64,000 nt of DNA from contig NZ_BJYT01000002.1 in assembly GCF_007991655.1 (NCBI RefSeq), positions 62,001 through 126,000 on the forward strand, written 5' to 3'. Both the position numbers and the translations under genes were made by a program. This document shows positions 36,155-63,849 of the stretch, in pieces. The notes below the pieces were generated by a model that was not told the DNA's origin, searched no databases, and saw only the letters and a program-made list of their open reading frames with translations. The number at the start of each line of letters is the position of its first letter. The stretch's first letter is position 1. The DNA is from Segetibacter aerophilus. Lineage in GTDB: Bacteria > Bacteroidota > Bacteroidia > Chitinophagales > Chitinophagaceae.

Positions 36155-36159
36155 CTGTG

Positions 36160-36234
36160 TGGGAGCACACGGGTTCGAACCGCGGACCCTCTGCTTGTAA
36201 GGCAGATGCTCTAAACCAACTGAGCTATGCTCCC
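36160..36234 (-). tRNA. tRNA-Val(TAC)
   Basis: 75-nt cloverleaf on the minus strand. Acceptor GGGAGCA pairs with TGCTCCC, D arm AGCTCAGTTGGTTTAGAGC, anticodon loop CTTACAA giving anticodon TAC (valine), T loop TTCGAAC, discriminator A. CCA is not encoded. Its 3' half is copied, inverted and with six differences, at 36351-36384. Confidence 0.95.
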
Positions 36235-36649: not shown

Positions 36650-37909
36650 ATGAGTCAGCCAAACTATTCAGTATCTCTATTTTGGGATAAAAGAGCCGTG
36701 GATCAAAAAACAAAGATGTCACGGGTGATGCTTACAGTTAATCTTCAGGCCAAACAATTTCGAATCTCGTTAAAGCTGAGGTCTACAAAAGAAGACTTTG
36801 ATAAAGCGATTTCATCAGCAAGGGCTTTAAATACTGAAACAAAGTTTTTGAGAACAGAGATTAATGAATATGTGACAAAAGCGGAAACTATTCTAGAAAG
36901 GCTGATTAACCCTTCACAAGAAAGCTTCTCACGCTTATTCAAATCAAATACAGATTTATTAACTAGTACTAAAACAAGCATTACGCCTTTCTTTCAAATG
37001 AAAATTTTGGAATTGCACAAAGAGGAGCGCTTCTCACAAAAGGTTAATTCTAAGCTTGCTTTATCGTCTTTGCTAAAGTATAAGGCTGTTATTTATTTTG
37101 AGGAAATCGATGTAAAATTTTTGAAGGGCTACACTGAGTTTATGGTTAATAGTGGAAAGACAATAACTACTGCTAATTTTTATTTACGTGCCTTGCGTAC
37201 TGTATTCGCAGACGTTGTAAAATCAGGAATTGTAGCTGAGAAATATTTTCCGTTTAGAGGGTATATAATGAGTTCCCGTGTGCGTTCTAAATCCGTTTTA
37301 TATCCTGAACAATTGAAAGCTTTACTCAATTATCCTACTGTTGGCAAACGGGAAACTCGGGCAAAAGCTTATTTCTTTTTTTGCTACCTGACAAATGGCT
37401 GCAATTTTCGGGACGTTGCTATGTTGAAGTGGAAAAATGTTCAAGGCAATATGATAATTTTTGTCCGTCATAAAACCCGGCATACTACCCAATCAGAAAA
37501 AGAAATAAAAGTGTACATGCATGACCTCTCAAAAGAGATTATAAAAAAATGGGGGAACGTATCTACAAAGCCTGATGAATATATTTTCCCTGTTTGTAAG
37601 AAAGGAATGACGGAGGAACAAATGAATAAAGCAATAATAAGGTATAAAAGAATCTCAAATAAGTTCTTAGCTCCTATCGGCAAGAAGCTCGGTTTTGAAG
37701 TCCACTTGTGTTTAAACCTAGCTAGACATTCTTTTGCTACAAAAATGAAAATTGATGGAGTGGCTGTTACTGCTATTTCGGACGCTTTAGGACACACCAC
37801 CACCACCACAACCGAACATTATATGAAGTCCCTACCTGATGAATATATTAAAGAGATGTCTTCAAACCTTTTAAAGTTTGCGCCAGCAGATAAATTGCTT
37901 GTCATTTAG
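36650..37909 (+). CDS. Bacteroides-type tyrosine recombinase / integrase
   Basis: A 419-residue protein with an N-terminal arm-binding domain (about 1-100), SAM-like core-binding domain (about 105-210) and catalytic domain (about 225-400). The first catalytic Arg position reads GCNFRDVAMLKW, followed by HKTR, LARHSFATKM (His/Arg) and LGHTTTTTTEHYMKS with nucleophile Tyr. It is of the kind carried by Bacteroidota genomic islands and mobilisable elements. There is no IntI-type extra helix that I can recognise. It sits beside a tRNA-derived repeat and ends in a good terminator. Confidence 0.9.
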   Translation: MSQPNYSVSLFWDKRAVDQKTKMSRVMLTVNLQAKQFRISLKLRSTKEDFDKAISSARALNTETKFLRTEINEYVTKAETILERLINPSQESFSRLFKSNTDLLTSTKTSITPFFQMKILELHKEERFSQKVNSKLALSSLLKYKAVIYFEEIDVKFLKGYTEFMVNSGKTITTANFYLRALRTVFADVVKSGIVAEKYFPFRGYIMSSRVRSKSVLYPEQLKALLNYPTVGKRETRAKAYFFFCYLTNGCNFRDVAMLKWKNVQGNMIIFVRHKTRHTTQSEKEIKVYMHDLSKEIIKKWGNVSTKPDEYIFPVCKKGMTEEQMNKAIIRYKRISNKFLAPIGKKLGFEVHLCLNLARHSFATKMKIDGVAVTAISDALGHTTTTTTEHYMKSLPDEYIKEMSSNLLKFAPADKLLVI

Positions 37910-43884: not shown

Positions 43885-43890
43885 AATATG

Positions 43891-45858: not shown

Positions 45859-45991
45859 TACTGCCAACTCAGTTCATTATTTATGCTGAGGTTTGAAAGT
45901 GGTTCCTCGGCGAACAAAAGACGTAGTGATTTACTTCCTGATTGCTCCAAAGTCCAGCCCCCACTATTGGCAATAACTCTTGTTGGCAGTA
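45859..45991 (-). repeat. attC-like site F
   Basis: 133-bp palindrome with perfectly complementary ends TACTGCCAAC (45859-45868) and GTTGGCAGTA (45982-45991). The right arm holds CACTATTGGCAATAACTCT. This third arm type (TATTGGCAATA) recurs at 52.05 and 53.63 kb. On the minus strand the box reads GTTGGCAGT. Confidence 0.75.
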
Positions 45992-46008
45992 GTTCGTGGT
46001 AGTGCCGT

Positions 46009-47025: not shown

Positions 47026-47074
47026 ATTAATTTGTTTTTTATGAAGCCTAATAAATTACTAACTCCCTTTTATT

Positions 47075-47415
47075 CAAAAAGATATTACTAAAGTCTTAAA
47101 TCTGCAAGTTGTTTTAATTAAATAATTCTCGCGACTATACCTACACACTTAAGAGTAGCACAACGAGTTAAAAGGGTGGTATTATTATGAGTACAGGTGA
47201 TACATTATCTACTTTCCTAAGACTTCAAGGGTTAATATTAACCTCACTGAGAATACAAGCCAAAGCCCTCTAGTAGACCTCCTGACTATGAGATGGATAC
47301 AGGTTTTAACATCCAAAAGCAATTACCCCATTAAAAACGAACCATAAATGTAGAAAGCGGAATAGCTGTGAATGTAAGGCATTAATCAATGCACTTTTTG
47401 CCATAGAAAGTACTC
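47075..47415 (+). repeat. Cassette-spacer repeat R, copy 1
   Basis: Contains AAAGATATTACTAAAGTCTT, then ACATTATCTACTTTCC..AGACTT, GTAGACCTCCTGACTATGAG, ATGG and CAATGCACTTTTTGCC. It shares this order with five other places in the region. It reads as decayed coding remnants (KDITKVLNLQ; RPPDYEM) on the plus strand, opposite to the cassette genes. Confidence 0.65.
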
Positions 47416-47550
47416 GAGGTGATTGAAAGAATACGACGAGGAAGTGTTCGTCCGCCTAATTTGTAAGGTCCTATCTCTGCTTTTATTTCAATCTAAAAAT
47501 TTTAATAATCCGAGTACAGTTTTTACAAAAGCGGATTAATGTTCGCTCTG

Positions 47551-49014
47551 CTATTGTAAATTTTTATCTCGTTCGATTAAGCTATTCTTCCTTGCAGCTA
47601 TTATTTCTTCAGCCGGAGCAATAACAATTTCATAAACCTTTTCTATAATTTCTTTCTCATCCTTATATAAAACAGGTTTCAGTACCCAAGGATACCGAAG
47701 AGATGCTTCAAACATGGATGTTATTATGCAGTTAGCTTCACAAATTGAAACAATAGGTATTGATGGTAAATTCGGAATGATAAAACTTAGTTCATGCATA
47801 ATCATTGTAGCGTCTGTTAGGTCTGCAATAATAAATCTGCTCATGTGAGCTAATAATGAAATAATTTCTGTTATATCCCTTAGCTGAGGTTTTTGAAAAT
47901 CAAAAAGTAAAGGGATATAATTATGCTTTCGTAGTGCATCCCTTAAGGCATCTAAAATAACTTTCCTTTCAGGTGTAAACCTGCCAAGTATCAAAATAGA
48001 TTTAGAAGTAATTGTGTCAACAATATTTTTTATGCCACCACCACTAAGTAATAAATGTATAACCACTGCAGTCTCAATGCTGTCCACAGCGAAAGTATTT
48101 CCAGTTTTAGGGTCACCCAAATACAAATTTCTTTGTTGCGCATTGTCTAATTTAGCGTCCCAGATTGACACACCAAAAACTTGGCACTGTTCTAAAAATG
48201 TTCCAGTCAAGTTCGCCTCATTCATATTGGCGTGACTAAAATCGGCTTTATTAAAAAGAGCATTTTTGAAGTTTGCTCGAGTGAGGTCTGCATGAATAAA
48301 GTCAGTTTCATTTCCCTCAGAGCTTTCTAAATTTACATCTTCAAGTATAGCGTTGGTAAAATCTGCATGATGAAGAATTGCTCCTCGTAAGTTTGCTCCA
48401 CGCAGGTTAGCTCTCCTAAGAATAGAAAATGATAAATCTATATACTCCAAGTTCTTCTTTTCAAGATTAGCACCCTCAAGGTTTGGATGTATGCTTTCGT
48501 TTTCCTTACGCCAGGAATTCCAACTTTTTACTCCTTTATTAATGATAGGCGTGTGATTTTTAATAATACTTGATATTGCATGTATAAGGACCTGAAATTT
48601 GGCTTTCCAAAAACTGTTGTTGATTTCATAACCCTTATAAAGAGCAATTTTTTGGATTGACTGTGGGAGTTCAGAAATGTTTGGAAAGTTAGCTCCATCC
48701 ACCAATAACGGAATCAGAGGTACTTCATTTTTAATCGCAAGCTCAATTTCTAAGCACACAATATCATCCTTTTCATCCAAACGCCTCCTTTTAAAACTGT
48801 TTTCGAGCCAATTTTCTCCAATGAGTATTATTACAACTGCCGACCTTGGAATTACTCTTTTTACCCAGCTGCGTAATTCTTCAACGGTTGCATCAACTTC
48901 TATATCAAATAAAACATTTTCAGCTCCATATTCTTTTTTCAAATAATCAAACAATCTGCCTGCATAGCCGCCGGTGTCTTTTCTTCTATAAGAGATAAAA
49001 ATTTCCTGTGACAT
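47551..49014 (-). CDS. TIR domain - pentapeptide repeat protein
   Basis: A 487-residue protein starting at the ATG at 49014 (MSQEIFISYRRKDTGGYAGR). The TIR domain (about 1-140) has the EIFISYRRKD strand-A motif and an acidic residue in CLEIELAIK at the usual Glu position. Pentapeptide repeats (A(N/D)LxX; about 170-300) form a right-handed beta-helix (LRRANLRGANLRGAILHHAD). The C-terminal 130 residues (ILILGRFTPERKVILDAL, then FIIADLTDAT) match a second nucleotide-binding-like domain known behind pentapeptide repeats in cyanobacteria. Probably a signalling or NAD-cleaving effector; function is inference. Confidence 0.8.
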   Translation of the reverse strand: MSQEIFISYRRKDTGGYAGRLFDYLKKEYGAENVLFDIEVDATVEELRSWVKRVIPRSAVVIILIGENWLENSFKRRRLDEKDDIVCLEIELAIKNEVPLIPLLVDGANFPNISELPQSIQKIALYKGYEINNSFWKAKFQVLIHAISSIIKNHTPIINKGVKSWNSWRKENESIHPNLEGANLEKKNLEYIDLSFSILRRANLRGANLRGAILHHADFTNAILEDVNLESSEGNETDFIHADLTRANFKNALFNKADFSHANMNEANLTGTFLEQCQVFGVSIWDAKLDNAQQRNLYLGDPKTGNTFAVDSIETAVVIHLLLSGGGIKNIVDTITSKSILILGRFTPERKVILDALRDALRKHNYIPLLFDFQKPQLRDITEIISLLAHMSRFIIADLTDATMIMHELSFIIPNLPSIPIVSICEANCIITSMFEASLRYPWVLKPVLYKDEKEIIEKVYEIVIAPAEEIIAARKNSLIERDKNLQ

Positions 49015-49084
49015 TACAGCCTGAGTTAAAGTTTCTAATGTATGCGCAAAACACTGCACAACTTGCTACGTACCTTTTTATTAC

Positions 49085-49510
49085 AAGAATTATAAATTTT
49101 TATAGTAAGTGGAACAAAAGATACAGCTGAAATATTTAAATGCGTAATCGAACAGAGGAATGTTCGGTTTTAAAAACGTTCACCTTTTGTCAACAAGTCC
49201 GATGGAACTTATTTGCAGCACATTAAGCAAAACTCTTTACAGGATTAAAGGTTCATTTTAAATGCAACCAGCATAATGGTTACAAGTAATACTTTATCTA
49301 CTTTGAAAAAGACTTCAAAAGTTAATATTAACCCTACCAGAGCTACAAGCGAAAGTCCTGCTAGTAGAGCTCTTGATTATGAGATGGACAAAGGTTTCAA
49401 CCTCCAATAGCAACTTGTTGACTCTGAATGCATAATTGATGAATGAGAGAGGCATAAGTCAGAATAGAATGCACTTTTCAATGCACTTTTTTTGCCATAG
49501 AAGTACTCCT
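49085..49510 (+). repeat. Cassette-spacer repeat R, copy 2
   Basis: One of the longest copies. Its first part (GGAACAAAAGATACAGCTGA to AGGATTAAAGGTTCA) is shared with copy 5, and its second part (CTTTATCTACTTTGAAAAAG, GAGCTCTTGATTATGAGATG, ACTTTTCAATGCAC) with copies 1, 3, 4 and 5. It leads directly into attC-like site H. Confidence 0.65.
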
Positions 49511-49600
49511 GCCGGTTGAATAAAGTTGATGCTGTTATAGGCTTCCGCCTGATTTACGATGTTCGGCCACACTAGCATAAATACCCTTGTTGCCGGCCGT
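49500..49600 (-). repeat. attC-like site H (partial)
   Basis: Shows the inner spacer of the A/B/N type (TACTCCTGCCGGTTGAA, CCGCCTGATTTACGATGTTC), the right arm GGCCACACTAGCATAAATAC and end box GTTGCCGGC at 49589-49597. The left arm has been overrun by repeat R. Confidence 0.55.
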
Positions 49601-49641
49601 TAAGTCATCGTTTGGTCTCGGACTTTAGGACATATTCGCTT

Positions 49642-49869
49642 TCAAACGTTGTTTTGTTGCTCAGTCAAGCTTTGCCAGTTGTCTGGCAGTTTGAATTCTA
49701 TTTTTTCGGCTATCGCCACTTCACTTGTTGGTATGCCTAATCGTTGTTTTATTTTGTTTATTTCTCCAAAAAGGAAATACAAAGCTTGTTGATGCTGGTT
49801 TATTGCCTGTTGGTGTTGTTGCAGCGTTGCGTATAATGCTTGAAGAGCTTGTTGTGTTTGTGGGTCCAT
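49642..49869 (-). CDS. Small Gln-rich helical protein
   Basis: A 75-residue protein starting at the ATG at 49869 (MDPQTQQALQALYATLQQHQ). It is dominated by a Gln/His-rich coiled-coil, then a short segment FKLPDNWQSLTEQQ. The longer frame to 50052 is not supported. It is possibly a scaffold or antitoxin-like peptide. No family is recognised. Confidence 0.5.
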   Translation of the reverse strand: MDPQTQQALQALYATLQQHQQAINQHQQALYFLFGEINKIKQRLGIPTSEVAIAEKIEFKLPDNWQSLTEQQNNV

Positions 49870-50054
49870 AATTTTAAATTTAATTATTAAAAGATACTCA
49901 CATTGTCCGTTAATTTTATTAATGACGAAGTTTGAGAATAGAGGTTCCCTGTTAAATAAGGGCACGTAGACTTCTTTACTAAATGCATTTGATAAGACCT
50001 CATCTACCCGCAGCCATACCTGCAATTGTAGCACTTGCATTAACCAATACAAAG

Positions 50055-50280
50055 GATATTACCAAAAGTATTAAATCCGCAAGTTATTCATTAAGATAAT
50101 TTTGACGCCAAAATGTTCCTAGTTTAAGAGTAGCTCAACGAGTGAAAAAGGTTGACATTATTATAAGTTCAATTGATACTTTGTCTGCTTTCAAAAGACT
50201 GCAAGGTTAATTTTAACCTTAGTCGAAGTACAAGCAAAAGTTTGCTGATAGACCTCCTGATTATGAGCATCGACATCATC
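50055..50280 (+). repeat. Cassette-spacer repeat R, copy 3
   Basis: Contains GGATATTACCAAAAGTATTA, TACTTTGTCTGCTTTCAAAA, GACTGCAAGG and GATAGACCTCCTGATTATGA in the same order as the other copies. It is truncated before the ATGG and CAATGCAC parts. Confidence 0.6.
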
Positions 50281-50903
50281 TTCCTTATTGAATTGATTTT
50301 TAAAGGAAAAGTATTATTTGGTTTTCTTGTAAAAGGATTGTTAGGTTAAGCTTTTCAATTCCCAATGCATTTAATGATGCACTGTTCTTTGATTTTCATA
50401 TTTAAAGCCGACATGCTTTCTGCTAATTTTATGTTTTAAATAGCCCCTTTCGTAGCTAACTACCATTAATAACTCCCAACACTATTAACCGTTTTCGTTC
50501 ATTGACAGCATACCGCTACTTTCTCGAGTCCACTCATTACGAATGAGTCCGTTTATATAGTTTTCTTTTCCTAATGTCTTAAAAAAAATCTGGAATTTAT
50601 AAGAGTTTATAGACTGGCATCAACAGGATTAGAGTTTTATTTCTTCAATTTATTTTGCCCGAATATTAAGCAACAATCCTCAGTATCTCCAGTCATCCTA
50701 GATATTTGTAATACGATTTTGATTGGCCTTGTCATCCCTTAACAGGTCTAAACAGGCATAAAAGTAAGTCCTGTAGTGTATGGTAAATTCACTTTTTTCT
50801 TTTTATAAGTTTGCCCACTTTGGTCGTTAGGGTGTAGCTGCATATGCCAATAGTTCATGTCCTGTTATGATGTATAATTAATGTGGTGTCGTCGAGAAGA
50901 CTT
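50281..50903. other. Gene-free stretch
   Basis: No supported gene in about 620 bp. It contains a segment (about 50350-50400, with AATGCATTTAATGATGCACT) that resembles 36470-36530 near the integrase, and a 7-bp dyad ACTCATT-ACG-AATGAGT at 50532-50548. It looks like cassette or element debris. Confidence 0.5.
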
Positions 50904-51045
50904 CCTAGCAAAGTTAAAATCTCTATGAAGTTGTGGCAATTGGAAAAACGTCAGGTACGATAAACCAAAAAAGCAAAATAGTGATTTATAATTAAAGGTT
51001 TAACCTACGGCCACAGTTTCATAAACACCCAATTTGCCCGCTGGC
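50904..51045 (-). repeat. attC-like site I
   Basis: Arms TCTATGAAGTTGTGGCAA (about 50924-50941) and GGCCACAGTTTCATAAACAC (about 51009-51028). Boxes are CCTAGCAAA on the left (minus strand TTTGCTAGG, first G changed) and TTTGCCCGC on the right. The AAAAAAGCAAAATAG spacer is shared with E and J. Confidence 0.65.
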
Positions 51046-51060
51046 TTTCATCCTTTCAAC

Positions 51061-51714
51061 TTAAGGCTTTTTTCCTTTCATTTTAATAGCTTTCAATTTA
51101 TTTTCCGCTAAAGTCGCAAGATGTGGCGCACTGTATATGTACTCTAAAATAGCAGAAGTTAAAGCCCTTACTATGGGAATTTCCTTTTCACTAAGTTCTC
51201 CAATTCCAGCATGAGCTCCGATATTCCCAAAATCTTTTAACCCGCTTGCAACTTTTACAAGCTTTTCAGGAATTTCATTGTTGTCTGCTAAGTCTTTAAG
51301 CATTAAAGCTAACGTAGCACCGTTTGCTTTTCTATCTAAACAAACCAATTCTAAAAGTCTTCTAAGTAAAATGGCATAGGCATTTACATCTATAGTCTTA
51401 ATTTTATCGGCAGCACGAAGAGTGCTTGCTATGTTGTCTGGAAGTCCAATAGGGAAGTTGTTTTCTTGCGGAAACAAGATTTCATAATTGATTTCGTCGT
51501 CGCTTTCTATGCCATCATGCCAGCCGTAAGAGACCACATTTACCCTTTTACAAGCAGGGCATTCTAACACACTATAGATGGTCCCACCTTCACCCATAGG
51601 TCCATAATCGGGGTCTTCGTAAACTTCTGTATCATTAACGCTACCAATAATTCTCATGTGGGAAATATTATTACAATGTCCACATGAAGTAAGTTTTGAA
51701 AGATTATCAGACAT
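51061..51714 (-). CDS. DUF4145 protein with zinc ribbon
   Basis: A 217-residue protein from the ATG at 51714 (MSDNLSKLTSCGHCNNIS); the longer frame translates the attC-like palindrome. An N-terminal zinc ribbon (CGHC and CPAC) is followed by a DUF4145 helical domain (about 90-205; NAYAILLRRLLELVCLDRKA, then LKDFGNIGAHAG). DUF4145 occurs at the ends of restriction and other defence proteins as well as alone. One-gene cassette between sites I and J. Confidence 0.8.
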   Translation of the reverse strand: MSDNLSKLTSCGHCNNISHMRIIGSVNDTEVYEDPDYGPMGEGGTIYSVLECPACKRVNVVSYGWHDGIESDDEINYEILFPQENNFPIGLPDNIASTLRAADKIKTIDVNAYAILLRRLLELVCLDRKANGATLALMLKDLADNNEIPEKLVKVASGLKDFGNIGAHAGIGELSEKEIPIVRALTSAILEYIYSAPHLATLAENKLKAIKMKGKKP

Positions 51715-51740
51715 TATTGATTTTGAAATTTTAAGCTTAC

Positions 51741-51875
51741 AGGCAAGGTTTAAGTGTTTATCAAGTTTTGGCATTCGTAAACATCAGGTTCAATTAACCA
51801 CAAAAGCAAAATAGCGATTTATAGTTGGATGGTTAAAGTGGGGTGGCAGTTTTATAAACACTCATGTTCTTAGCT
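51741..51875 (-). repeat. attC-like site J
   Basis: Arms AAGTGTTTATCAAGTTTTGGCA (51752-51773) and TGGCAGTTTTATAAACACTC (51844-51863). Boxes AGGCAAGG on the left and GTTCTTAGC (51866-51874) on the right. The left box pairs partly (GGCAA) with the right box of site I, its own cassette end. Confidence 0.65.
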
Positions 51876-52084
51876 GTAGCCTTATTCTTTGCGTTTCGGG
51901 CCGTCTTTAACCTATTAATGTACTTTAAAACTCCACTTAGCTTTAATACGGTTGATGTAGAAGCCTATCACGTTGCTTTTCCAGGTCTTTAATTCTATTA
52001 TCAGTCATACTCAAAAATTTTTAGGAAATTTATCATTGGGCGGCTTAGCACCATTGGCAATACTCCTGTTCGTCGTTCGTACTT
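51876..52084. other. Remnant cassette without a full gene
   Basis: About 200 bp between site J and a site-F-type arm at 52050-52076 (TTGGCAATACTCCT and box GTTCGTCGT). A 21-codon minus-strand frame (MTDNRIKDLEKQRDRLLHQP) followed by stops suggests a decayed short cassette gene. Confidence 0.4.
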
Positions 52085-52906
52085 CTAATTCAATGCGTCA
52101 GGTATATCTTTATCAATGAAACCTGTCACTTCATCTTGTGTTGGGTTTTCGACTTTGGATAGTCGAATTGACTGCCTTTTAATTGTGTCCTCAAATATAT
52201 TTCTAACTGCTCTCGCATTTGATGTAAAAAGTCCTGAGTCGTAATAACGGTCAATTAAATATTCTATTTTGTATTTTGCACCTTCAGTTAGTTTATTGTG
52301 ATAGTCCGCTACCATTTTGTGAAATATTTGAGTAAGTTCTTCCTTTAAGTAATCCTCAAAATGTAGTGTCTTCGAAAATCTTGACTTTAAACCAGGATTT
52401 GAAGTGAGAAGGTCTTCCATCTCTTTTGGGTAACCGGCAATAACTATAACAATTTTTTCTCTATTATCTTCCATTAATTTCAAAAGAGTTTCAACTGCTT
52501 CATTCCCAAAATCATTTCCTGTTTTGAAAAGTGAATATGCCTCGTCAATAAAAAGAATTCCACCTAAAGCGCTTTCAAACACCTTTTGTGTTTTTGGAGC
52601 AGTATGTCCGATATATTGTCCAACAAGGTCGCCTCTGCTCACTTCAACAACCCTATTTGAAGCCAAAAGACCGATATCGTAATATATTTGCCCTAATAGT
52701 CTTGCTACCGTAGTTTTCCCTGTTCCGGGATTACCTGTAAAAACGATATGCAATGTAGACGGTGTAACAGGTAAGCCTAATTCAATTCTTTTTTTTCTAA
52801 ATCGAGCTAAAGTTTTCAACTCTTCTATTTCAAGCTTTATCTTGTCCAACCCGATTAGATTTGAAAGTTCAATTTGTTCATCTGACTGCTCGCTTTTATC
52901 ATTCAC
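52085..52906 (-). CDS. AAA+ ATPase, CbxX/SpoVK type
   Basis: A 273-residue protein with a GTG start overlapping the upstream stop (GTGA). Walker A is FTGNPGTGKTTVAR (about 52-65), Walker B ILFIDEAYSLF (about 117-127), sensor 1 IVIVIAGYPKEM. The arginine finger region is LKSRFSKTL, and the C-terminal helical lid has FTSNARAVRNIFEDTIKRQ. CbxX-type AAA+ proteins remodel protein partners. The tight coupling to the next gene suggests that protein is the partner. Confidence 0.9.
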   Translation of the reverse strand: MNDKSEQSDEQIELSNLIGLDKIKLEIEELKTLARFRKKRIELGLPVTPSTLHIVFTGNPGTGKTTVARLLGQIYYDIGLLASNRVVEVSRGDLVGQYIGHTAPKTQKVFESALGGILFIDEAYSLFKTGNDFGNEAVETLLKLMEDNREKIVIVIAGYPKEMEDLLTSNPGLKSRFSKTLHFEDYLKEELTQIFHKMVADYHNKLTEGAKYKIEYLIDRYYDSGLFTSNARAVRNIFEDTIKRQSIRLSKVENPTQDEVTGFIDKDIPDALN

Positions 52907-53541
52907 TTCAAACTTGGGTTGTTCTTTATTCGGTTGTTTATTTTTTTTTTAATTTTCAGTTTCGCTTGTAAAAAATATGCTTCTAACTCATCTTTCGTTG
53001 CAACAATAAAATTGCTCGTCATTATGTCTAACATAAAAAGAGCTTCCAGAAAAATGTCTTCAAATCTTGGGAATAATTCATAATAAGAATCAAGTAATTC
53101 AAACGTCTTGCTTGTACCTGCTTTACTTGTTTTTCTTCTAACATAACTTATGTCATAACTTTGCTTTGTAGTTGTTGTGAGATAAGATTTAATTTTTTTT
53201 AAGGTGAAAGATTCAAGTCCGAAATTAACAGTAAATCGAAATCCCTTATGAATTAAACTAACGACGTCATTTAAAACTAGCTTGTTATTTATAAACGCAA
53301 CGGATTGATACACAACGTAGTTGGTTTCTTCATCTTCAGATTGCAAATACACGAATACCAACTTTAGAGTGTAATCCTCGGGTTCAAAATCTATGGCTAG
53401 CTCCAACTCCTCAAAATCCTTTCTTTTATAGTCATTTTCGCTAGTAGTATAAACGGTTATAAAAGTTATTTTATCTATTTTTTTAAACCTATGACTTAAA
53501 ACAGCAGGTACCCCTTTATACTCTAGTAATAATTTTGGCAT
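52903..53541 (-). CDS. Hypothetical partner of the AAA+ ATPase
   Basis: A 212-residue protein with a beta-rich N-terminal half (MPKLLLEYKGVPAVLSHRFK) and a helical C-terminal half ending in a lysine-rich tail. No family is recognised. It overlaps the AAA+ gene by 4 bp, so the two are made together; together they fill one cassette. A substrate or adaptor of the ATPase is a reasonable guess, not shown by sequence. Confidence 0.65.
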   Translation of the reverse strand: MPKLLLEYKGVPAVLSHRFKKIDKITFITVYTTSENDYKRKDFEELELAIDFEPEDYTLKLVFVYLQSEDEETNYVVYQSVAFINNKLVLNDVVSLIHKGFRFTVNFGLESFTLKKIKSYLTTTTKQSYDISYVRRKTSKAGTSKTFELLDSYYELFPRFEDIFLEALFMLDIMTSNFIVATKDELEAYFLQAKLKIKKKINNRIKNNPSLK

Positions 53542-53565
53542 TTTCCAAGTTATATCTTTTACTGA

Positions 53566-53653
53566 GATGCGAACGAGAAGTATTGATGTGCTGGACTAAT
53601 TTCAAACGGTCTACCCCGTTCCGCCCTCTATTGGCAATAGTCCTGTTGGCGGT
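53566..53653 (-). repeat. attC-like site L (partial)
   Basis: Left box minus-strand GTTCGCATC (53566-53574) and right arm CTCTATTGGCAATAGTCCT with box GTTGGCGGT (53645-53653). The arm matches sites F and 52.05 kb. The GTTCG part of the left box pairs with the box at 52068-52076, the end of the same cassette. Confidence 0.55.
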
Positions 53654-53804
53654 TGCGTTTTCGGACACTTGCACAAACATGATTGTTGGCAGCAATTTTA
53701 TCAAGACGTTTCCTGGTCTTGTTAGGTTAAAATCTCGAAATAAACTACTCTTCATAGTGCTTTCGTTTGTAAACAAAACTAAATTAACCTGACAAAGTTG
53801 AATG

Positions 53805-54085
53805 AAGCCCTTAACGGGATAGTGGAATTAGTACAACAAATTAAAAATCTGCCTACAAGAGAATGGGTAAGAGGTTATACTTTTCCTACTTACGAAAAGC
53901 TTTAAGGTTAATTTTAACCTTCTTATATTTCAAAGCTAACTCCTGCTGGTAGACCTCCTGATTATGAGATGGACAAATTTTTTATGCTACAACAGTAATT
54001 GTTTTATTAAAGAGGCAAAATCAGCAATTGAAAGCATAATAAATAGAATGAAATGTACTTTTCAATGCACTCTATTAAAGCAGAA
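53805..54085 (+). repeat. Cassette-spacer repeat R, copy 4
   Basis: Contains TGGAATTAGTACAACAAATT, AAGGTTAATTTTAACCTTC, GGTAGACCTCCTGATTATGA, GATGG and ACTTTTCAATGCAC. The first part still reads as protein (NGIVELVQQIKNLPTREWV), supporting an origin from a small gene on the plus strand. Confidence 0.65.
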
Positions 54086-54136
54086 TAATAATTTAAAGTT
54101 GAATTCATTACGTCCCACACAATTTTAAAACACACT

Positions 54137-54146
54137 GTTAGCGGCA
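54137..54146 (-). repeat. Cassette end box (GTTAGCGGCA)
   Basis: This box is 30 bp past the stop of the lipoprotein gene at 54176. Its complement TGCCGCTAAC differs by one transition from the start box of the same cassette at 54917-54926 (TGCCGCCAAC). The surrounding palindrome (ACACACTGTTAGCGG) is short. Confidence 0.55.
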
Positions 54147-54175
54147 TGTGGCTTTGGAGTGGAAGCTATTTGCAT

Positions 54176-54883
54176 TCAATCATAAAGCCAATAATACTTC
54201 ATTTTATTGTGGGCAATTTGTGACCGGAGTTTTGCTATTTCAAGTTCGTACTGTAAAATAACACCTCTGTTCATTCCTCTTGCAATGTCCATGCGTAGTT
54301 CGTATTGTAATCTTTCTCTTTTTACTTCAAGTTCAGTATTCATTTTTAGCACGCTCAACTCGGATGAACTATCGTATTCATCTTTATAATTTGTTGCTTT
54401 GAAAAATAAACTATCAATATTTATTCTTACAGGCTGCAAATTTATTGCATACAGAAAAGCTTTCTCTCTTCGCTCTTTGCTTTGGCTGGGTGATTTGATA
54501 AGTATGTTGTAATCAAGGTTGTAAACTTTTGTGCTTGTGTCTGGCTTACCCGCCTCCTGAAGTAAAAATTCATAATGGCGTCTTGTTTTCATTATCCTGT
54601 GAGATAATTCGACAATTAAAGGATTGCTGTGTGTTAATCTTGCACTTTCTCTCAAATCTCTCAACCTATCCAAATGTTCCTTTAAAAAATCTGCGTTGTA
54701 CGTATGTATTCCGCTCAGGGAACCAAGGGAATATCTAATACTATCTACTTTGATATATTCAATGTCTTTGTATTGTTGACTTTTAAGGTTCTCAACTGCC
54801 TCTTTCAACTTTTCTTCAGTTGTGGGAGCTTTACAACCAATAATTGAGATGATAACAGTTGCAATTATTAAGGACTCTATCAA
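54176..54883 (-). CDS. Lipoprotein with long helical body
   Basis: A 235-residue protein. There is no ATG near the expected start, so TTG at 54883 is used, about 35 bp after the core box. The lipobox is ISIIGCKAP (Cys17). The rest is charged and mostly helical (ELEVKRERLQYELRMDIARG). No domain is recognised. Single-gene cassette with matching start and end boxes. Confidence 0.6.
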   Translation of the reverse strand: MIESLIIATVIISIIGCKAPTTEEKLKEAVENLKSQQYKDIEYIKVDSIRYSLGSLSGIHTYNADFLKEHLDRLRDLRESARLTHSNPLIVELSHRIMKTRRHYEFLLQEAGKPDTSTKVYNLDYNILIKSPSQSKERREKAFLYAINLQPVRINIDSLFFKATNYKDEYDSSSELSVLKMNTELEVKRERLQYELRMDIARGMNRGVILQYELEIAKLRSQIAHNKMKYYWLYD

Positions 54884-54916
54884 TTAATTGAGACTTTAGA
54901 AATTTTGAATTGCTAT

Positions 54917-55053
54917 TGCCGCCAACGAACACATATTTATGAAGGTGTGCGAGTGGTAGCACTTCTGCTGATTGAAAAAACTGATGCCGTGATATTCGTC
55001 CGCCTGGTTTATAACATCCTGCGGCACTTGCATAAATACCATTGTTGCGCGTT
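54917..55053 (-). repeat. attC-like site N
   Basis: Left box TGCCGCCAAC (minus GTTGGCGGCA) with ATTTATGAAGGTGTGCGAGTGG, right arm GCGGCACTTGCATAAATACC and box GTTGCGCGT (55044-55052). The spacer GATGCCGTGATATTCGTCCG is identical to site B over 19 bases. Confidence 0.75.
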
Positions 55054-55061
55054 CGTGTAAG

Positions 55062-57374
55062 TCAATTCGCCATTTCCTTTTTTTCGATAATGAATTCAAC
55101 TTTTAATTTGCTATACTTTGTGTTGCATGCCTGACAAAGGAGAAAATTAATATTTCCTTGTGCAATGAATTTAACGTTCAAGTCTTCGCCCTTTGTGTCT
55201 GAAACTCTAAGTCCCACTTGTCGAGCTTTTTCAAAGAAGTCTTCATCAGCTTTCACCATATACCAAAACCCGTAATTGTTTGTTCCCTTTTTTAGAACTT
55301 TAAAAGTATTGTCGGGCTTTTCAAGCCTGTTTACAAATTCTTTGCTTTCTTGTTCATTATTAACCATTTCAGTCCCACATTTGTAACAAAAAATCTCATC
55401 CTTCTCTAAATGACCTACTTTGTTTTTAACTTTCCAATCAAGACCCGGTTGCATGTTCCAATTTCTTTCTATTAATTCATTGTGTTTTTTTTCTAGGGAT
55501 TTTTGAGAGCAACAACTTCCACATAAATTGCAAACATAAGGTCCGTATTTTTCATAATGGTCTCTGGGTTGATGTTTCGTATAGTTGCACCTTGCGGTAT
55601 CCCTCGAATCAATTAAATTGTCGCATCTACTTTTTATTGCTGTTTTTTTACCACCTAAGCAATGATTTAGATAAACTGTCTGTTTGTTGTCGCATTGCTG
55701 GTTTGAGCAAATAAAGTTTGAGATGCGATAATAACTATAATATCCCTCTTTGTTAGGTTTTAAGATATGATTGCATGAACGACAGTTGAGATGTTTTAAA
55801 TAGATGTTTATTTTGTTTAATAATCCCAAAAAATCGAAATATCCTTTTTTGTCAAAATGAATATTTAAAATTGAAAAGAAATTAGCTAAAGTGTAGTCGT
55901 TATAGTGTCTCGGCAGTTGGAGTGCTTGATTTGCAGCGTAACAACTTCCACCTCTGCACCACCAACAATTATGTTTGTAGGTTCTATCTCTTCCATCTTC
56001 ATTAAATCTAACACCTTCGCAAAATTCCACGTTTCTTGGGATAGGAATTTGTTTTAATGATACTATTGATTTGCCACCTTCTTCTGTTTCTCTTGTTTCA
56101 TTTGGGATACTTCTTCCGTTACATTTTTCAAAAAACCCATTTAGTGATAACAAAGAAGCTGTGTCATTTTCAATATGTTTAGTTAGGATTGAGAAGATTG
56201 ACTCTTCATTTAAAAAGCTTCCGCCTCTGACGCTTTCAATGGAAGCTAAAATTATATTACAAGAAAAATCTAATTGAAACTTTTTTCCTTCCGAAAAAGA
56301 ATAGGTCGAATTTTTCAATGCTGCTATTTTCTCATAAGAGATATTATCGGCATTCTTCGACAGTAAATAAAATAGCTTTCTAATAAAATTCTGTTGGTCA
56401 GGAGTATTTAGAAAAATAAAGTTTGATTGATAAATACCGTAGTCTTCTTTGTGGATTAAGTCGGAAAGCCAAAGTTTAAGCTTTATGTAATCAGCGGAAA
56501 CTTCGTAAAAAAATGATATGAGTAATTCACCAACGGCTTTATCTATTTCCCTAACAAAACTTACAAGAATTTTATATACTTTGGTTGATTCCTCTAAATT
56601 CATTTTTTCAGTACCGAATACTTCAATTATTAGAAACATAAACTCTTTTTGCACTTCAACTTGCTTTTCAAGTTGCAAAAAAGCCATTAAATTTTTCAAC
56701 GATGCAAATAGGTTGTTCCTATTTATATAGCTTTCAAAAAAAGCAGTTTTGCTTAATCTGTTTAGTTTCGCGTATATTTTTTCTTGAATGTTTCTTTTTT
56801 GTTTTACAAAGTAATTCCTGATGAGTGTTAAGTCGGGTTCCAACTTAATTACATTTTCAAGCCACAACTGAACGCTGTACTCATCTGGTGTTATTTCTTC
56901 AACGTGCTTTGCAATTATTTCGCCTAGGTGGTCTTTTGTGATAACATCTTCGAAAAGCTTATTGATTGAATGTACTTTGTCCGTAAAGTTTTTATACTCT
57001 ATATCGCTGGAAATACTTTTTTGTGAGGCTAACTCTTGCTCAATTATAAATGTCACACAATGGCTTGGTAAGGCTTTTAAAATTGCTTTCCTAAAGTAAA
57101 AGTCCTTTAGTTGAGAAAATTGCAGAATTAAAAAGTCTGTGTCAGATTTGAATTGTGATAATAGAGTAACATTTTTTGCTTCTAATGTACCTTCCTTTTT
57201 TCGAGAAGGTGTGAACTGAAAAGCAACTTTATCATTGTCGTTAATTGGCGGTGTTTTTATTTTGGAGATATGAACAAAGTAGTCTTGTCCATTAAATATA
57301 CTTTTAACAAAGCCAAAACCTTTGTCATTATCAAAAAATTTAATTTCTCCTATTTGCCAATCTTGGTCTGTCAT
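55062..57374 (-). CDS. Cold-shock-domain protein with zinc-cluster C-terminus
   Basis: A 770-residue protein, the largest of the array. Residues about 5-75 are a cold-shock/S1-like OB fold (GEIKFFDNDKGFGFVKSIF with RNP motifs FGFV and YFVHIS). About 90-420 is helical and unassigned. About 430-770 has many CxxC pairs (CWWCRGGSC, CRSCNH, CNLCGSCC, CYKCGTEM, CQACNTKY), suggesting five or more zinc sites. It probably binds nucleic acid. I know no characterised protein of this layout; a role in RNA-directed defence or stress is speculation. Confidence 0.75.
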   Translation of the reverse strand: MTDQDWQIGEIKFFDNDKGFGFVKSIFNGQDYFVHISKIKTPPINDNDKVAFQFTPSRKKEGTLEAKNVTLLSQFKSDTDFLILQFSQLKDFYFRKAILKALPSHCVTFIIEQELASQKSISSDIEYKNFTDKVHSINKLFEDVITKDHLGEIIAKHVEEITPDEYSVQLWLENVIKLEPDLTLIRNYFVKQKRNIQEKIYAKLNRLSKTAFFESYINRNNLFASLKNLMAFLQLEKQVEVQKEFMFLIIEVFGTEKMNLEESTKVYKILVSFVREIDKAVGELLISFFYEVSADYIKLKLWLSDLIHKEDYGIYQSNFIFLNTPDQQNFIRKLFYLLSKNADNISYEKIAALKNSTYSFSEGKKFQLDFSCNIILASIESVRGGSFLNEESIFSILTKHIENDTASLLSLNGFFEKCNGRSIPNETRETEEGGKSIVSLKQIPIPRNVEFCEGVRFNEDGRDRTYKHNCWWCRGGSCYAANQALQLPRHYNDYTLANFFSILNIHFDKKGYFDFLGLLNKINIYLKHLNCRSCNHILKPNKEGYYSYYRISNFICSNQQCDNKQTVYLNHCLGGKKTAIKSRCDNLIDSRDTARCNYTKHQPRDHYEKYGPYVCNLCGSCCSQKSLEKKHNELIERNWNMQPGLDWKVKNKVGHLEKDEIFCYKCGTEMVNNEQESKEFVNRLEKPDNTFKVLKKGTNNYGFWYMVKADEDFFEKARQVGLRVSDTKGEDLNVKFIAQGNINFLLCQACNTKYSKLKVEFIIEKKEMAN

Positions 57375-57464
57375 TAAGTGGTTTGTCTAATTATGGAATG
57401 GTCCGTTACTTGACGCCCAGCTCTCTAATATATGCACCTTTTTGTTCTATTAATGGTTATTTTT

Positions 57465-57860
57465 AAATGGAATAAAAGATACTTCTGAAATATTTTAACG
57501 GCAACTGGATATAGGAATGTATGATATGAAGAACCGTTGCCGTGATTAGCAAGTCCAAATAAACTTTTTCCAGAAGTATATAAAGCAAAATTTGTTTTTA
57601 GGATTGAAGGTTCATCTAAATACCTGGGCACAATGGTTAGAGTTCATACTTTATCTACTTTTGAAAGACTTGAAGGTCAATATTGTCCTCTACTAAAACC
57701 GCAGTGCAAACTCCTATTAGTAGACCTCCTGATTATGAGATGGAAAAAGGTTTCAACCTCCAATAGCAATTGCCTCATGAGATACGGATAATTGGATATA
57801 GAAAGCAGTATAATTTAGAGCGAAATGCACTTTTCAATGTACTTTATTATAGCAAAATAG
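57465..57860 (+). repeat. Cassette-spacer repeat R, copy 5
   Basis: A long copy parallel to copy 2: GGAATAAAAGATACTTCTGA, AGGATTGAAGGTTCATCTAA, TACTTTATCTACTTTTGAAA, GTAGACCTCCTGATTATGAG and ACTTTTCAATGTAC in the same order. Confidence 0.65.
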
Positions 57861-57869
57861 GGCTATGTT

Positions 57870-57930
57870 GCCAAATGCTCCAACTTCCTGCCCCAATAAC
57901 GCCAAACGGTTGATTATGGGCCGTTTTGCT
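57870..57930 (-). repeat. Possible attC-like remnant O
   Basis: CCAAATGCTCCAACTTCCTG, CCCCAATAACGCCAAACGG, then GTTGATTATGGGCC. It shares the TTGGAGCA/CAGGAAGT-type spacer with site F. A box close to GTTRTGC would pair partly with the start box of this cassette at 59823-59831. Weak. Confidence 0.35.
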
Positions 57931-57989
57931 TCTGTCGCACGTAGGGTTTAAGTAAAAGAAACATACTGTTCAGTTGTTGAATTTATTTC

Positions 57990-58493
57990 TTATGATTTTG
58001 TACTCGGTCTTACCAATTTTAAAACCTGATTTACACAAGCAAAAGTTACAATCAAGAATACAAGACCTAATATTACCTGCACTATATTACCACTTATCCC
58101 TATGAGATAAATACTATAAAAATAACCGAAGGAAATAATTATAGACACTAATGCAGTTAAAACTAGTAATATGAGAACAATTCTTTTCGACGGCGAAATT
58201 TTATTTTCGATTTCTTTTGTTACTTGACTTTCAGTTTCTCTACGTTTTTTACTAAATCGAAAAATCAGCGCAGCAACAAAAAAGGGAATAACATAAATTC
58301 CAATAGCTGCACCGATAGTATTGCCGATTCCATAACTATTACTATTAACGGTGCTTCCTTCTGGTGCTTGCAATGACAAAAACATAAAATGAGCAACAAT
58401 AAAAATTCCTGCGCCGGCAAAGAAAGCTGACCAATATTTCTTAAGGAGGAATAAACTTAAAAGCGCAATTACAAATGCTACAAATAATTCCAT
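57990..58493 (-). CDS. Four-span membrane protein
   Basis: A 167-residue protein with four predicted transmembrane segments (about 2-35, 55-80, 103-125 and 132-158) and a basic cytosolic loop (RFSKKRRETESQVTKE). No family is recognised. It begins 9 bp after the stop of the exported protein gene at 58503; the two form one cassette. Confidence 0.65.
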   Translation of the reverse strand: MELFVAFVIALLSLFLLKKYWSAFFAGAGIFIVAHFMFLSLQAPEGSTVNSNSYGIGNTIGAAIGIYVIPFFVAALIFRFSKKRRETESQVTKEIENKISPSKRIVLILLVLTALVSIIISFGYFYSIYLIGISGNIVQVILGLVFLIVTFACVNQVLKLVRPSTKS

Positions 58494-58502
58494 ATTGGTA
58501 GA

Positions 58503-59660
58503 TTACATGTTTTCTTCAAACACAAGGCTTTCGATTACTCTGTCAATTCGTTTATCTTCTTCGCTTGTCCAAAATACTGAAGGCATTGATATTGTTAAGT
58601 TATAAAGTAGTCCTTTTTTAAAGCAGCTTATGTGTTTGTATTTATAAGCAACAATCTTTGTCTGGCTTCTAGCATTTGCTGAAAAGGTAGCAATGGAAGC
58701 TGGGAAGTTGTTCAAATAGCCTTTTACTATTTTGTAGTGTTGCAGTTCCATGTTCATTGCTCTGCAAATCTGTATTGCGTTCTTCTTATCCTCTTGAAGT
58801 TGCTTGTCTGTAATCTCCCCATCCTTTAATTTGAGGCTTGGATAGTCGCTAACTAAAACTAAAAATGATTTTCCGCTGTCTGATTGCACACTCTTGATAA
58901 CTGTTAGCTTACTATCACCTTTTCTGATTTCCCAATTGTCAATAAAGCGAATGCGGAAAGAGTATTTTGTGTTACGATATAATGAACCTTCAATCTTAGC
59001 ATTAGAAGAAGATTTGTCTGTATCTGTAGGATTAGCTTTCACCCACTCTTGATAAGTTGGTTTTGAAGAACGAACTGTTACCCCTTGATTAGGAAGTGGA
59101 TTGAGTAAAGTTGTCTTTTTAGCAAGTTCTCGAAATAAGCTTTTACTTTGGTTAAAGATTGCAGATGCTTTCGTGTCATTTTGACTTCCAACAAAATAAT
59201 TTAAGACCATTAGTCCTTTGTTAGAGTACATGTAATAGTGGAACGAGTAAGAATAATACCCTTCTGTTTCTGTTTTTACAAGTATTTCAGCACCTTCAAA
59301 ATTGTCAAACTGTAATCTTTGAATTGCTTTTACCTCCCCTTTATTCATCATCTTTTTTAATTGAGAAGTTGACATGGCGAATTCAAATTGCTCTTTATTT
59401 AATAGTGAAGGGGTTGGAATTAAAATAAGATTTGAAATTATTGCAGAACCATCCTTATTAGAAGAAGTGAAATTTTTAACGGTCCTTGTATCGTTAATAA
59501 CTTTCTGAGTCCAACTACAAGGGTAAAACATTTTTATTTTCATCCCTATGGATTTGCCCGAACCGTCTGTAGTATAAGTGCAATACTTTTCTGCCTTAGA
59601 TTGTTTACACTGAAGAAGCAAGATTGCTAATAATAGGTAGTATCTCCGTAGCATTGTCAT
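58503..59660 (-). CDS. Exported/lipid-anchored hypothetical protein
   Basis: A 385-residue protein. The N-terminal hydrophobic segment ends in LLLQCKQSKA, so Cys18 is a possible lipid site. Two similar beta-rich halves (GMKIKMFYPCSW region and YRNTKYSFRIRFIDNWEIRK region) resemble PsbP/DUF1795-like folds repeated in tandem. An alternative ATG lies two codons later. Co-cassette with the membrane protein at 57990. Function unknown. Confidence 0.65.
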   Translation of the reverse strand: MTMLRRYYLLLAILLLQCKQSKAEKYCTYTTDGSGKSIGMKIKMFYPCSWTQKVINDTRTVKNFTSSNKDGSAIISNLILIPTPSLLNKEQFEFAMSTSQLKKMMNKGEVKAIQRLQFDNFEGAEILVKTETEGYYSYSFHYYMYSNKGLMVLNYFVGSQNDTKASAIFNQSKSLFRELAKKTTLLNPLPNQGVTVRSSKPTYQEWVKANPTDTDKSSSNAKIEGSLYRNTKYSFRIRFIDNWEIRKGDSKLTVIKSVQSDSGKSFLVLVSDYPSLKLKDGEITDKQLQEDKKNAIQICRAMNMELQHYKIVKGYLNNFPASIATFSANARSQTKIVAYKYKHISCFKKGLLYNLTISMPSVFWTSEEDKRIDRVIESLVFEENM

Positions 59661-59822
59661 TTCCTTAAAAAGTATTTAATCGGTTTATAAATTCCATACA
59701 CAATTAAAACAGGAATAATATAGGTATCCACTCTGAAAGACTTGGCAGTCCAATAAAGAAGGTCATATTTTTATCTTTAAGGTTTAAATTGTTTTGCAAA
59801 GAATCAGGGTGTGTCCAAAAAT

Positions 59823-59955
59823 GAGCATAACATCAAAGTGTTTTTCAAGTTGTGGCAAAAAAACGTCGTATTCATTAACCACAACAGAAAAATAGCAATT
59901 TAAATGGAATCGGTAGCACTGTATAGTTTAATAAACACGGCAAACTTCTGGGGAT
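59823..59955 (-). repeat. attC-like site P
   Basis: Left box GAGCATAAC (minus GTTATGCTC), arm AAAGTGTTTTTCAAGTTGTGGCA (59835-59857) and right arm TAGTTTAATAAACACGGCAAA (about 59925-59945). It is of the E/I/J type. It bounds the cassette of the two genes to its left and follows the histidine kinase operon to its right. Confidence 0.65.
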
Positions 59956-60068
59956 TGAATACAAAATATAATCAGCAGCTAGACAAGCTCTTTAAGGCAG
60001 GCAATAACCTCTACAACTAAATCTAACGTTATCTTATACAAATTACTTCTATTAATAACTATAATTAT

Positions 60069-62494: not shown

Positions 62495-62545
62495 AGTAGA
62501 ACCTATAGGGAAGGAGTTTGGTTTTGAAGTTCACCCATATCTGCA
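62495..62545 (+). pseudogene. Integrase fragment
   Basis: The sequence CCTATAGGGAAGGAGTTTGG and TTTTGAAGTTCA encodes PIGKEFGFEVH. It matches the APIGKKLGFEVHLCL stretch of the intact integrase and is closer still to the decayed copy at 38087-38121. It is a small relic of a third related recombinase, 24 kb from the first. Confidence 0.7.
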
Positions 62546-62727: not shown

Positions 62728-63717
62728 TCAATTTATGTACGATAATGACATTTCTAAGCTGGATTGACTATAAGCAAAAATCTCATACTGCCTAATACTA
62801 ATCGGTAAGCTTTCTATTGTGTACTCATTCGCGATTATAGTAAAGAAGTTTCCATTTTTTCTTTCTGACCGCTTTTCATTAATGAACATTCTCCATTCAG
62901 ATTCTACCCAACCAGAAAGCAGATATTGAGGATTTGAACAAATAACAATCATATGTTTTGAATATTCAATTGCCTCATCAATTCGTCTCATAAATTCTGA
63001 ACTCCCAAGTTTTGGCAAACTTACTTCCGATAAGAATACTGTTTTACTTTTTGATGTGAGGTAGTCGTACAGTTTTTTTGCTATTTCAAAGTCTGCAGAC
63101 TTATGGCAAATAAAAACATCGTATTTAAATCGCTCTGTTTCAAATACTGACTTTCGTGCCTTTCTTACATGCTTGTCTATAGGATGAAGTGAAATAATTT
63201 TGTTAATCCATTCAAATGCTGCTTGTGTGTCGGGTGATTTTACACGCGAAGCAGTTTCATTCATTAGGTATTCTAATCCTTTTTCATCCGCAGCCTCAAT
63301 TTCAATTTGGAGGATTGTAGCATCGTTGTTGGTTTCAATATTTTTTAGGTAGAACTTGTGATTAGAATAGTAAACTCTTAAAGCATTTAAAAAAGTGATT
63401 TTGTGATTGAACGGTCTGGCTGATTGAATCGCAGAATTAACTGAAATATTTGCTGAGGTAGCAACGGCACTTCTTAAATATGCACCGTCTGCTATTTGCT
63501 CCCACATTCCATACTCAAATTTATTTATATCATCTCTTGTTCCATTTGTCAACATTACAGGAAGTATTTTCAAGACTAACGACCTGTAGTCATCTAACGG
63601 CGGTACCAGTTTCCCGCCATAGATTTTTTGAAAATCCTCGTCCCAGCAGCTATCCCGATTAATGAAGTTCAAATCATTTTCAATCAAATTAGAGATGCCA
63701 GAAAGTTCGGACTGCAT
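62728..63717 (-). CDS. C-terminal TIR domain protein
   Basis: A 329-residue protein from the ATG at 63717; a TTG lies three codons earlier. Residues 1-195 form an unassigned, mostly helical N-terminal region (possible sensor). The TIR domain is at about 198-325: strand A YDVFICHKSAD, the BB-loop region FLSEVSLPKLGSSEF, and the catalytic-Glu region WVESEWRMF. The Glu is in the position used by NAD-cleaving TIRs. A second TIR gene of the array, of different layout to that at 47551. Defence role is inference. Confidence 0.8.
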   Translation of the reverse strand: MQSELSGISNLIENDLNFINRDSCWDEDFQKIYGGKLVPPLDDYRSLVLKILPVMLTNGTRDDINKFEYGMWEQIADGAYLRSAVATSANISVNSAIQSARPFNHKITFLNALRVYYSNHKFYLKNIETNNDATILQIEIEAADEKGLEYLMNETASRVKSPDTQAAFEWINKIISLHPIDKHVRKARKSVFETERFKYDVFICHKSADFEIAKKLYDYLTSKSKTVFLSEVSLPKLGSSEFMRRIDEAIEYSKHMIVICSNPQYLLSGWVESEWRMFINEKRSERKNGNFFTIIANEYTIESLPISIRQYEIFAYSQSSLEMSLSYIN

Positions 63718-63849
63718 GTTAAGCAAAGTGAGGGTTAAGAGAGGTTAAGTCTACGAAAAAAAGGTATCTTTAATAATTAAGTTGCAATTCCACTAACTGA
63801 AAGTACTTTCTTAGTTGTTCCCACTTATCTGCTCATAGCGGAATTACTT

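Follow-up and report, generated by a model that had tools for sequence, protein, structure and literature searches.

Why should a bacterium keep, in an island at a tRNA gene, a protein of 770 residues that begins as a cold-shock protein and ends in a cluster of cysteines? The question is raised by one gene in a 64,000-nucleotide stretch of the Segetibacter aerophilus genome, the whole of which we call the window. An original prediction, made from the letters of the DNA, had the gene join an OB-fold domain, a long helical middle and a Cys-rich part in one chain. Its minus-strand reading frame starts with ATG and runs for 770 codons with no internal stops; the opposite, plus-strand reading of the same interval has 59. 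The genome (5.89 Mb in 79 contigs) holds one full copy. The three-part layout is borne out, the first part by PF00313, the second by an AlphaFold model and the third by a count of cysteines. In the model of the whole protein (17 rows; mean pLDDT 72.6, pTM 0.57), the cold-shock domain comes first, residues 79–403 are mostly helices, and a region rich in strand and coil follows to the C terminus. With the gene on the minus strand, this order is the reverse of the plus-strand coordinates in Table 1.

Table 1. Features of the gene and its island, in window coordinates
Feature	Position	Strand	Basis
tRNA-Val, left border of island	36159..36234	-	One end partly repeated at 36350
Integrase-like gene of island (by reading)	36650..37909	+	Decayed end copies 38054-38333, 62497-62533; weak integrase-type match 37523-37828
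Repeat downstream of gene	54914..55048		82% to 41401-41523, 75% to 49502-49593; imperfect palindrome by eye; fold z 0.23
Gene, 770-aa cold-shock/helical/zinc-cluster (predicted) protein	55062..57374	-	ORF; single full genome copy
Cys-rich C-terminal module, residues 405-770, 20 Cys, 6 CxxC	55065..56162	-	Alignments, model, Cys count
Conserved family core, residues 452-666	55377..56021	-	13-row and 17-row alignments; hold-out profile
Helical middle, residues 79-403	56166..57140	-	AlphaFold model; W171, W302 invariant (17 rows); weak repeat scan
Cold-shock (OB-fold) domain, residues 4-73, KGFGFV and YFVH segments	57156..57365	-	PF00313 35.6 bits (cut-off 27); 1mjc Z 10.8
Repeat upstream of gene	57633..57848		Copies 47192-47397, 49271-49492, 53866-54087; part 50173-50267; one just past window

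The cold-shock domain (CSD) is the familiar part. PF00313 matches residues 9–71 (E 8.6e-9), and in a genome-wide scan with the same model the domain scored 41.6 bits. Escherichia coli CspA (1mjc) superposes on residues 4–72 of the model at 1.4 Å over 66 residues. Its KGFGFV and YFVH segments resemble RNP1 and RNP2. CspA and CspE share this OB fold, but they are about 70 residues long against 770, have no helical middle or zinc module, and set equivalog cut-offs that the window protein misses by far. None of the whole-protein models of the CspA, CspE and CspD types accepts it; the best, of the CspE type, gives 31.4 bits against a required 120. This best match is one footing for a serious rival explanation, that the protein is a transcriptional or post-transcriptional regulator which, like CspA or CspE, binds nascent or messenger RNA and tunes neighboring restriction genes, for instance by delaying HsdR until the host DNA is methylated. 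A 20-Cys module and a 325-residue helical middle are, however, more than a Csp regulator needs, and we think this reading unlikely. Cold-shock proteins are RNA chaperones, and the protein could likewise be a general stress chaperone carried as island cargo with no role in defense. Three further CSD loci in the genome, besides this gene, speak against that proposal, and we give it little credence.

Beyond the CSD there is little to recognize. With Pfam opened to E values up to 1, the protein brings up only CSD, S1CSD-TOTE-2 and Zn_ribbon_3. Outside the CSD, Pfam and NCBIfam give nothing above a curated cut-off, PADLOC and PHROGs return cold-shock families only, and no enzyme domain is recognized, so the expectation that no described housekeeping relative would turn up has held in these searches. 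Three defense or conflict systems come closest. The retron Se72 effector (NF038236) has a cold-shock-type domain in a defense system, but its model covers 62 positions with no zinc module; against a cut-off of 82 bits the window protein reaches 17.8 and one relative, L047 (the L numbers are our labels for loci of relatives), 29.3 (5.9e-7). TOTE proteins (S1CSD-TOTE, PF22707) also have a CSD-like domain in a conflict system, but their cut-off is 27 bits and the window protein scores 14.8. The CoCoNuT type IV restriction systems, in the accessible part of their description, have CSDs and zinc ribbons together with helical or coiled stretches in defense proteins predicted to target RNA, and are built on an McrB GTPase with McrC (PMC11090510). 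The window protein, by contrast, has no McrB-type GTPase (Pfam, E up to 1), and PADLOC saw no McrB or McrC among five neighbors of the gene. The accessible parts of a BREX survey (PMC12839542), the CoCoNuT paper (PMC11090510) and a YprA paper (PMC12458937) do not describe such a layout. Nor did the open-license literature searched, as far as its text was available, yield a description of a characterized protein built this way, in line with what the original prediction had said. By its domain matches, then, this is a CSD-domain protein that is neither a Csp nor of the TOTE or Se72 type, and that lacks the CoCoNuT GTPase.

The third part is rich in cysteines. The protein has 22, of which 20 lie beyond residue 404, and they form six CxxC pairs (first Cys at 470, 531, 615, 618, 663 and 747), where at least five had been predicted. 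The runner-up among the 63 open reading frames of the window has two. Shuffles of the whole protein average 0.60 pairs and never reached six in 20,000 attempts; shuffles confined to residues 405–770 average 1.03 and did so in seven of 20,000. Between C452 and C666 lie 17 cysteines, 14 of them invariant and two nearly so in a 17-row alignment that includes the window row; C470 is neither. The core is a conserved Cys cluster, and in alignments its motif runs CEGR..WWC..C..CRxC..C..C..YLxHC..IDSR..C..C..CGSCC..GH..CxxC. From the conservation of the CxxC pairs and from what is known of such domains we predict that the module binds zinc and, from domain knowledge again, that the protein binds nucleic acid. 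When the C-terminal module is modeled alone (19 rows), its pLDDT is 64.8. A PDB fold search with it found nothing at E ≤ 0.001 (best Z 3.9), and its profile is only weakly similar to the zinc-ribbon proteins eL43 and RPB12 (best E 0.017). The IDSR and GH segments hold invariant residues that are not cysteines, D589, R591 and H655 among them (17 rows). These could belong to an activity of the zinc module that goes unrecognized, in which case the protein might be a stand-alone, single-gene anti-phage effector switched on when its CSD meets phage nucleic acid. Fold and profile searches of the module found no catalytic fold, which tells against an effector, and we regard this reading as rather improbable.

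In the helical middle two tryptophans, W171 and W302, are invariant in all 17 alignment rows; the model falls below a pLDDT of 50 at residues 193–230. A PDB search with the whole model had its match list filled by the CSD. A profile of an LW-type block finds weak second copies (iE 0.03–0.9) at similar places in several long forms of the family, a signal suggestive of an internal, solenoid-like repeat, and the middle is possibly a solenoid.

Is the layout a lone curiosity? The original prediction held up in that no described housekeeping relative came to light, and missed both the family to which the protein belongs and the defense genes around that family. A tblastn search of plasmids matched 307 records, with Klebsiella and Prevotella proteins aligned across the Cys-rich part and many matches to the CSD only (Rhizobiaceae). 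Likewise, 88 genomes matched, nearly all by the CSD alone; besides the window's own gene, one genome (G054) matched strongly beyond it, and another (G055) has a weak, stop-bearing fragment of the zinc core (2.3e-4). CSD-only matches in genomes and plasmids are left out of all family counts. Scanning genome contigs with a single sequence as query gave no relatives. Counting the gene's own genome, relatives occur in three of 195 sampled Chitinophagaceae genomes (E ≤ 1e-12) and in eight of 395 from Bacteroidota (E ≤ 1e-5). The genome-contig search gave 18 loci from 67 candidate stretches, and five of these are contigs that the other searches had also given (L030, L031, L041, L042 and L043). One relative came from 142 IMG/VR candidates and none from the 91 of a second viral scan; no record in the phage collection matched the zinc core.

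The window protein has the CEGR..WWC..CRxC..IDSR..CGSCC core in alignments and matches L005 pairwise at 4e-61. To avoid circularity, the Klebsiella, Prevotella, L032, L044, L045, L046 and L047 proteins were held out of an 18-row profile; the window row was in its training set, so the window protein's own score there is not independent. The profile recovers L044 at 5e-85, Prevotella at 1e-43, L032 at 3e-42, L045 at 2e-33, L046 at 1e-21, the Klebsiella and E. coli proteins at 2e-21 to 3e-21 and L047 at 1e-15, with nothing unrelated among the 593 open reading frames of the relative loci. That the Cys-rich part defines a real and widespread family is thus well supported by sequence comparison, and it goes unrecognized in our searches of Pfam, NCBIfam, PADLOC and PHROGs. 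By record title, its members come from Bacteroidota, Pseudomonadota and metagenome-assembled genomes (MAGs) labeled Chlorobiaceae, Ignavibacteriales and Holdemania. The Klebsiella-type gene, whole or partial, is in 264 of 5,426 complete E. coli genomes, always on the chromosome, and 198 of these matches cover at least 80%. A long-form query matched 132 plasmid records, 129 of them Klebsiella, and 127 of the 132 are typed conjugative. When 25 cores are placed in a tree, the window protein groups at 98/95 support with those of Rufibacter, Ginsengibacter and a Flavobacteriales MAG and with two from Pseudomonadota. The long forms, without L044, cluster weakly (84/89); L047 and L024 sit on long branches whose placement is unsure. 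One long-form gene, L059, from the MAG labeled Holdemania (Bacillota), clusters with Bacteroidota sequences, through either a binning error or transfer. The relative at L060:7643-10779 is split over two frames near the WWC motif, as a frameshifted pseudogene or an assembly error would be.

Most full-length relatives start with a cold-shock-like segment, the exception being the branch of Prevotella and L032. Pfam lists a CSD in six of nine relatives scanned, above its cut-off only in L047, and not in L042, L045 or Prevotella; because Pfam lists none there, the cold-shock starts of L042 and L045 are known by reading. Full-length members of the window's clade have 751–951 residues (L064 is cut), the long form 1,020–1,262, and the deeper relatives (Klebsiella, L045, L046, L047, Prevotella and L032) 615–1,182. 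The long form has a HARP-like segment ahead of the zinc core. HARP (PF07443) is a domain linked to SMARCAL1. Pfam finds it in two of the four long forms scanned, L044 (3e-5) and L041 (0.0061) and not L042 or L043, at scores of 23.9 and 16.5 bits that lie under the cut-off of 25; in the other long forms the segment is assigned by reading. For the window protein itself HARP is not listed at E up to 1. The gene at L044:9389-13177 has, by reading, two consecutive cold-shock-like segments where Pfam lists one stretch, and its neighbor at 13223-13876 has CxxC pairs of its own.

It is the company these genes keep that points to defense. Within 6 kb of the family gene, 21 loci have 167 open reading frames of at least 130 residues. 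PADLOC was run on 131 of them at 20 loci; L032 (10 frames) was left out because it is like L025, as were 26 small, IS-type or doubtful frames. We counted a component as named at E ≤ 1e-40 in one PADLOC batch and ≤ 1e-20 in the others. Nine of the 20 loci have such components, from type I, III and IV restriction, BREX, Wadjet, Ssp and Septu; most of the nine had been noticed before the scan, which covered all 20. L024 and L025 have type I restriction-modification (RM) genes annotated as such, L045 type III RM and Septu, L046 BrxL, PglZ and PglX, L067 a type IV component and L065 a reverse transcriptase. Unnamed PADLOC matches, taken from the best 25 of 102 and the best 25 of 124 families with the matching frame not given, were assigned by reading: HerA with a type II methylase at L054, JetC/JetD at L043, MTase_I, a piece of a type I methylase, at L064, and SspC at L065. 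Candidate-only PDC families occur at L041, L054 and L055 and a WYL protein at L057; L041, L055 and L057 are the three of the 20 with candidate or generic matches only. By reading, DpdF/PsyrT/C3a193-type matches (to the RecQ-like gene of L047), mad3, mad8, CARF5 and the WYL protein of L057 were judged generic and not counted. As a control, 11 arbitrarily placed 15-kb regions from seven of the same genomes (116 frames) gave only mad3 (two members) and GlgB (one), both judged generic by reading, hence no named component in any of the 11; the control being ordinary DNA, the contrast shows enrichment over ordinary DNA and not over islands. This contrast argues against the stress-chaperone reading, and it gives the family a moderately supported link to defense, drawn from gene neighborhoods.

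The remaining eight loci, L030, L031, L042, L044, L047, L060, L061 and L063, have no defense component assigned within 6 kb; at L042, where one frame was scanned by name without a match, this holds for the matches listed. The eight speak for a stress chaperone and weigh against a regulator of restriction genes. Six of them (L030, L031, L042, L047, L061 and L063), like the window gene with no assigned defense neighbor, would also suit the stand-alone effector.

Some members are packed into defense operons. In E. coli ATCC 8739 the CSD gene lies 22 nt after a yecA-like gene and 69 nt before hsdR, and on a Klebsiella plasmid it likewise sits just ahead of hsdR, inside a type I operon. The Prevotella gene follows a type I helicase gene by 1 nt. 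The L046 gene is separated from pglZ by 31 nt and from its other neighbor by 32 nt. Operon spacing to a named component is thus seen at three loci, the type I RM operon of E. coli and Klebsiella, the Prevotella type I locus and the BREX locus of L046. Other close neighbors are not named components: one at L045 is 24 nt away, one at L065 about 12 nt, and at L057 a WYL gene is 5 nt away; the presumed jetD of L043 ends 293 nt before the CSD gene. The defense partner differs from locus to locus. For the regulator, the place just before hsdR and the WYL-type gene after the family gene of L057 are points in favor. The stand-alone effector is harder to square with the operon members, which argue for partnership. 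Two of these neighborhoods have further features. In E. coli ATCC 8739 (L078) the type I S gene is annotated as frameshifted, and IS remnants, a group II intron gene and tRNA genes form the upstream border; at L065:1530-2807 the reverse transcriptase gene is of the defense type, shares the strand of the CSD gene and precedes it by about 5 kb.

And the window gene itself? It lies to the right of tRNA-Val in a run of minus-strand genes parted by two kinds of repeat. Counting open reading frames of at least 90 residues, 615 nt separate it from the frame before and 178 nt from the one after; it therefore has no operon partner and is probably a unit of its own. Its nearest neighbors do not make up a defense operon: in PADLOC none of six window proteins, the 770-residue one included, matched a named system strongly; an AAA protein at 52085-52906 matched IetA and others at 1.5e-8 or weaker. 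The same gene encodes an AAA ATPase of the CbbX/SpoVK type (3.7e-86, below the equivalog cut-off) and overlaps 52903-53541 by 4 nt. Elsewhere in the window, the protein of 47551-49059 starts with a TIR-like segment (8.4e-5 to the ThcB4 model, under its cut-off) and continues in pentapeptide repeats, and that of 62728-63726 resembles a retron-TIR model in its C-terminal part (8.1e-9, below cut-off), with no PDB match. About 7 kb from the start of the gene and past the window come a fused HsdM-S (E 2.5e-221 to 3ufb) and an HsdR (2e-222 to 3h1t), then a TIR protein and, by reading, a second, similar integrase at C2:135944. Taken with window positions 36159-64000, G000:C2:126000-137200 makes up one or more tRNA-Val islands with type I RM and TIR genes. 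A home in an integrative island at tRNA-Val, the 127 conjugative records among the 132 and the relative on an IMG/VR contig would all suit a protein that protects mobile elements, shielding incoming DNA by anti-restriction or by covering single strands. Yet the E. coli ATCC 8739 and Klebsiella plasmid copies sit inside the restriction operon itself, and the zinc core matched no record of the phage collection; we consider a protector improbable.

The gene had also been called a cassette gene. In favor of this, the repeats on either side of it recur in other gaps of the island. They have three and five additional genome matches, of which a single one lies off the gene's own contig. Against it, the integron integrase model TIGR02249 finds nothing above cut-off in the Segetibacter genome, and of 10 intergenic repeats folded as single-stranded DNA only that of 41399-41545 clearly beats its shuffles (z -4.41; one other at -1.61, eight between -0.57 and 1.26). 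Cassette status is not established. A typed palindrome pattern matched once where 0.04 matches were expected. The repeats in the gaps of window 41398-59960 may form a kind of cassette-like array not yet described, and a cassette array without an integrase is possible. An integron was considered and rejected: the genome has integrase-type matches only, none above cut-off, and all 14 control genomes have them too.

The reading we favor, tentatively, is that the window protein, from a family common where genomes are rich in defense genes, is a nucleic-acid-binding accessory, a sensor or adaptor, of bacterial defense. For it speak the conserved domain and cysteines, the named components at nine loci and, in the gene's own island region, the type I RM genes and the TIR protein past the window. 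Against it stand the eight loci with no component assigned and the three with candidate or generic ones, the window gene's want of an operon partner, the change of partner between loci, and a C-terminal fold with no PDB match and no recognized enzyme domain in the protein. Its N-terminal OB fold would hold RNA or single-stranded DNA, the helical middle would serve as a scaffold, and the C-terminal multi-zinc module, placed after the HARP-like segment in the long form, would provide a second contact, either to nucleic acid or to an effector partner. For members in type I RM and BREX operons, the partner would be the neighboring DNA-targeting machine, which the protein would help to trigger or restrain on meeting abnormal nucleic acid. 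Lone members such as the window gene would act in trans or by themselves. The effect may be to trigger, to restrain or to regulate.

What would it mean? The analysis puts a name to a conserved family that the defense-gene catalogue searched does not recognize, though members sit inside type I operons, one in E. coli ATCC 8739 and one carried by a Klebsiella plasmid. A bolder and unlikely extension is that bacterial immunity has a shared class of nucleic-acid-sensing adaptors, one cold-shock/multi-zinc protein placed in or beside such unlike DNA-targeting systems as type I RM, BREX, Wadjet and Ssp to license or restrain them, and acting also alone or in trans from integrative islands. Should a single protein prove to sense nucleic acid on behalf of such different systems, this would help to explain how RM and BREX spare their host and at what moment they become active.
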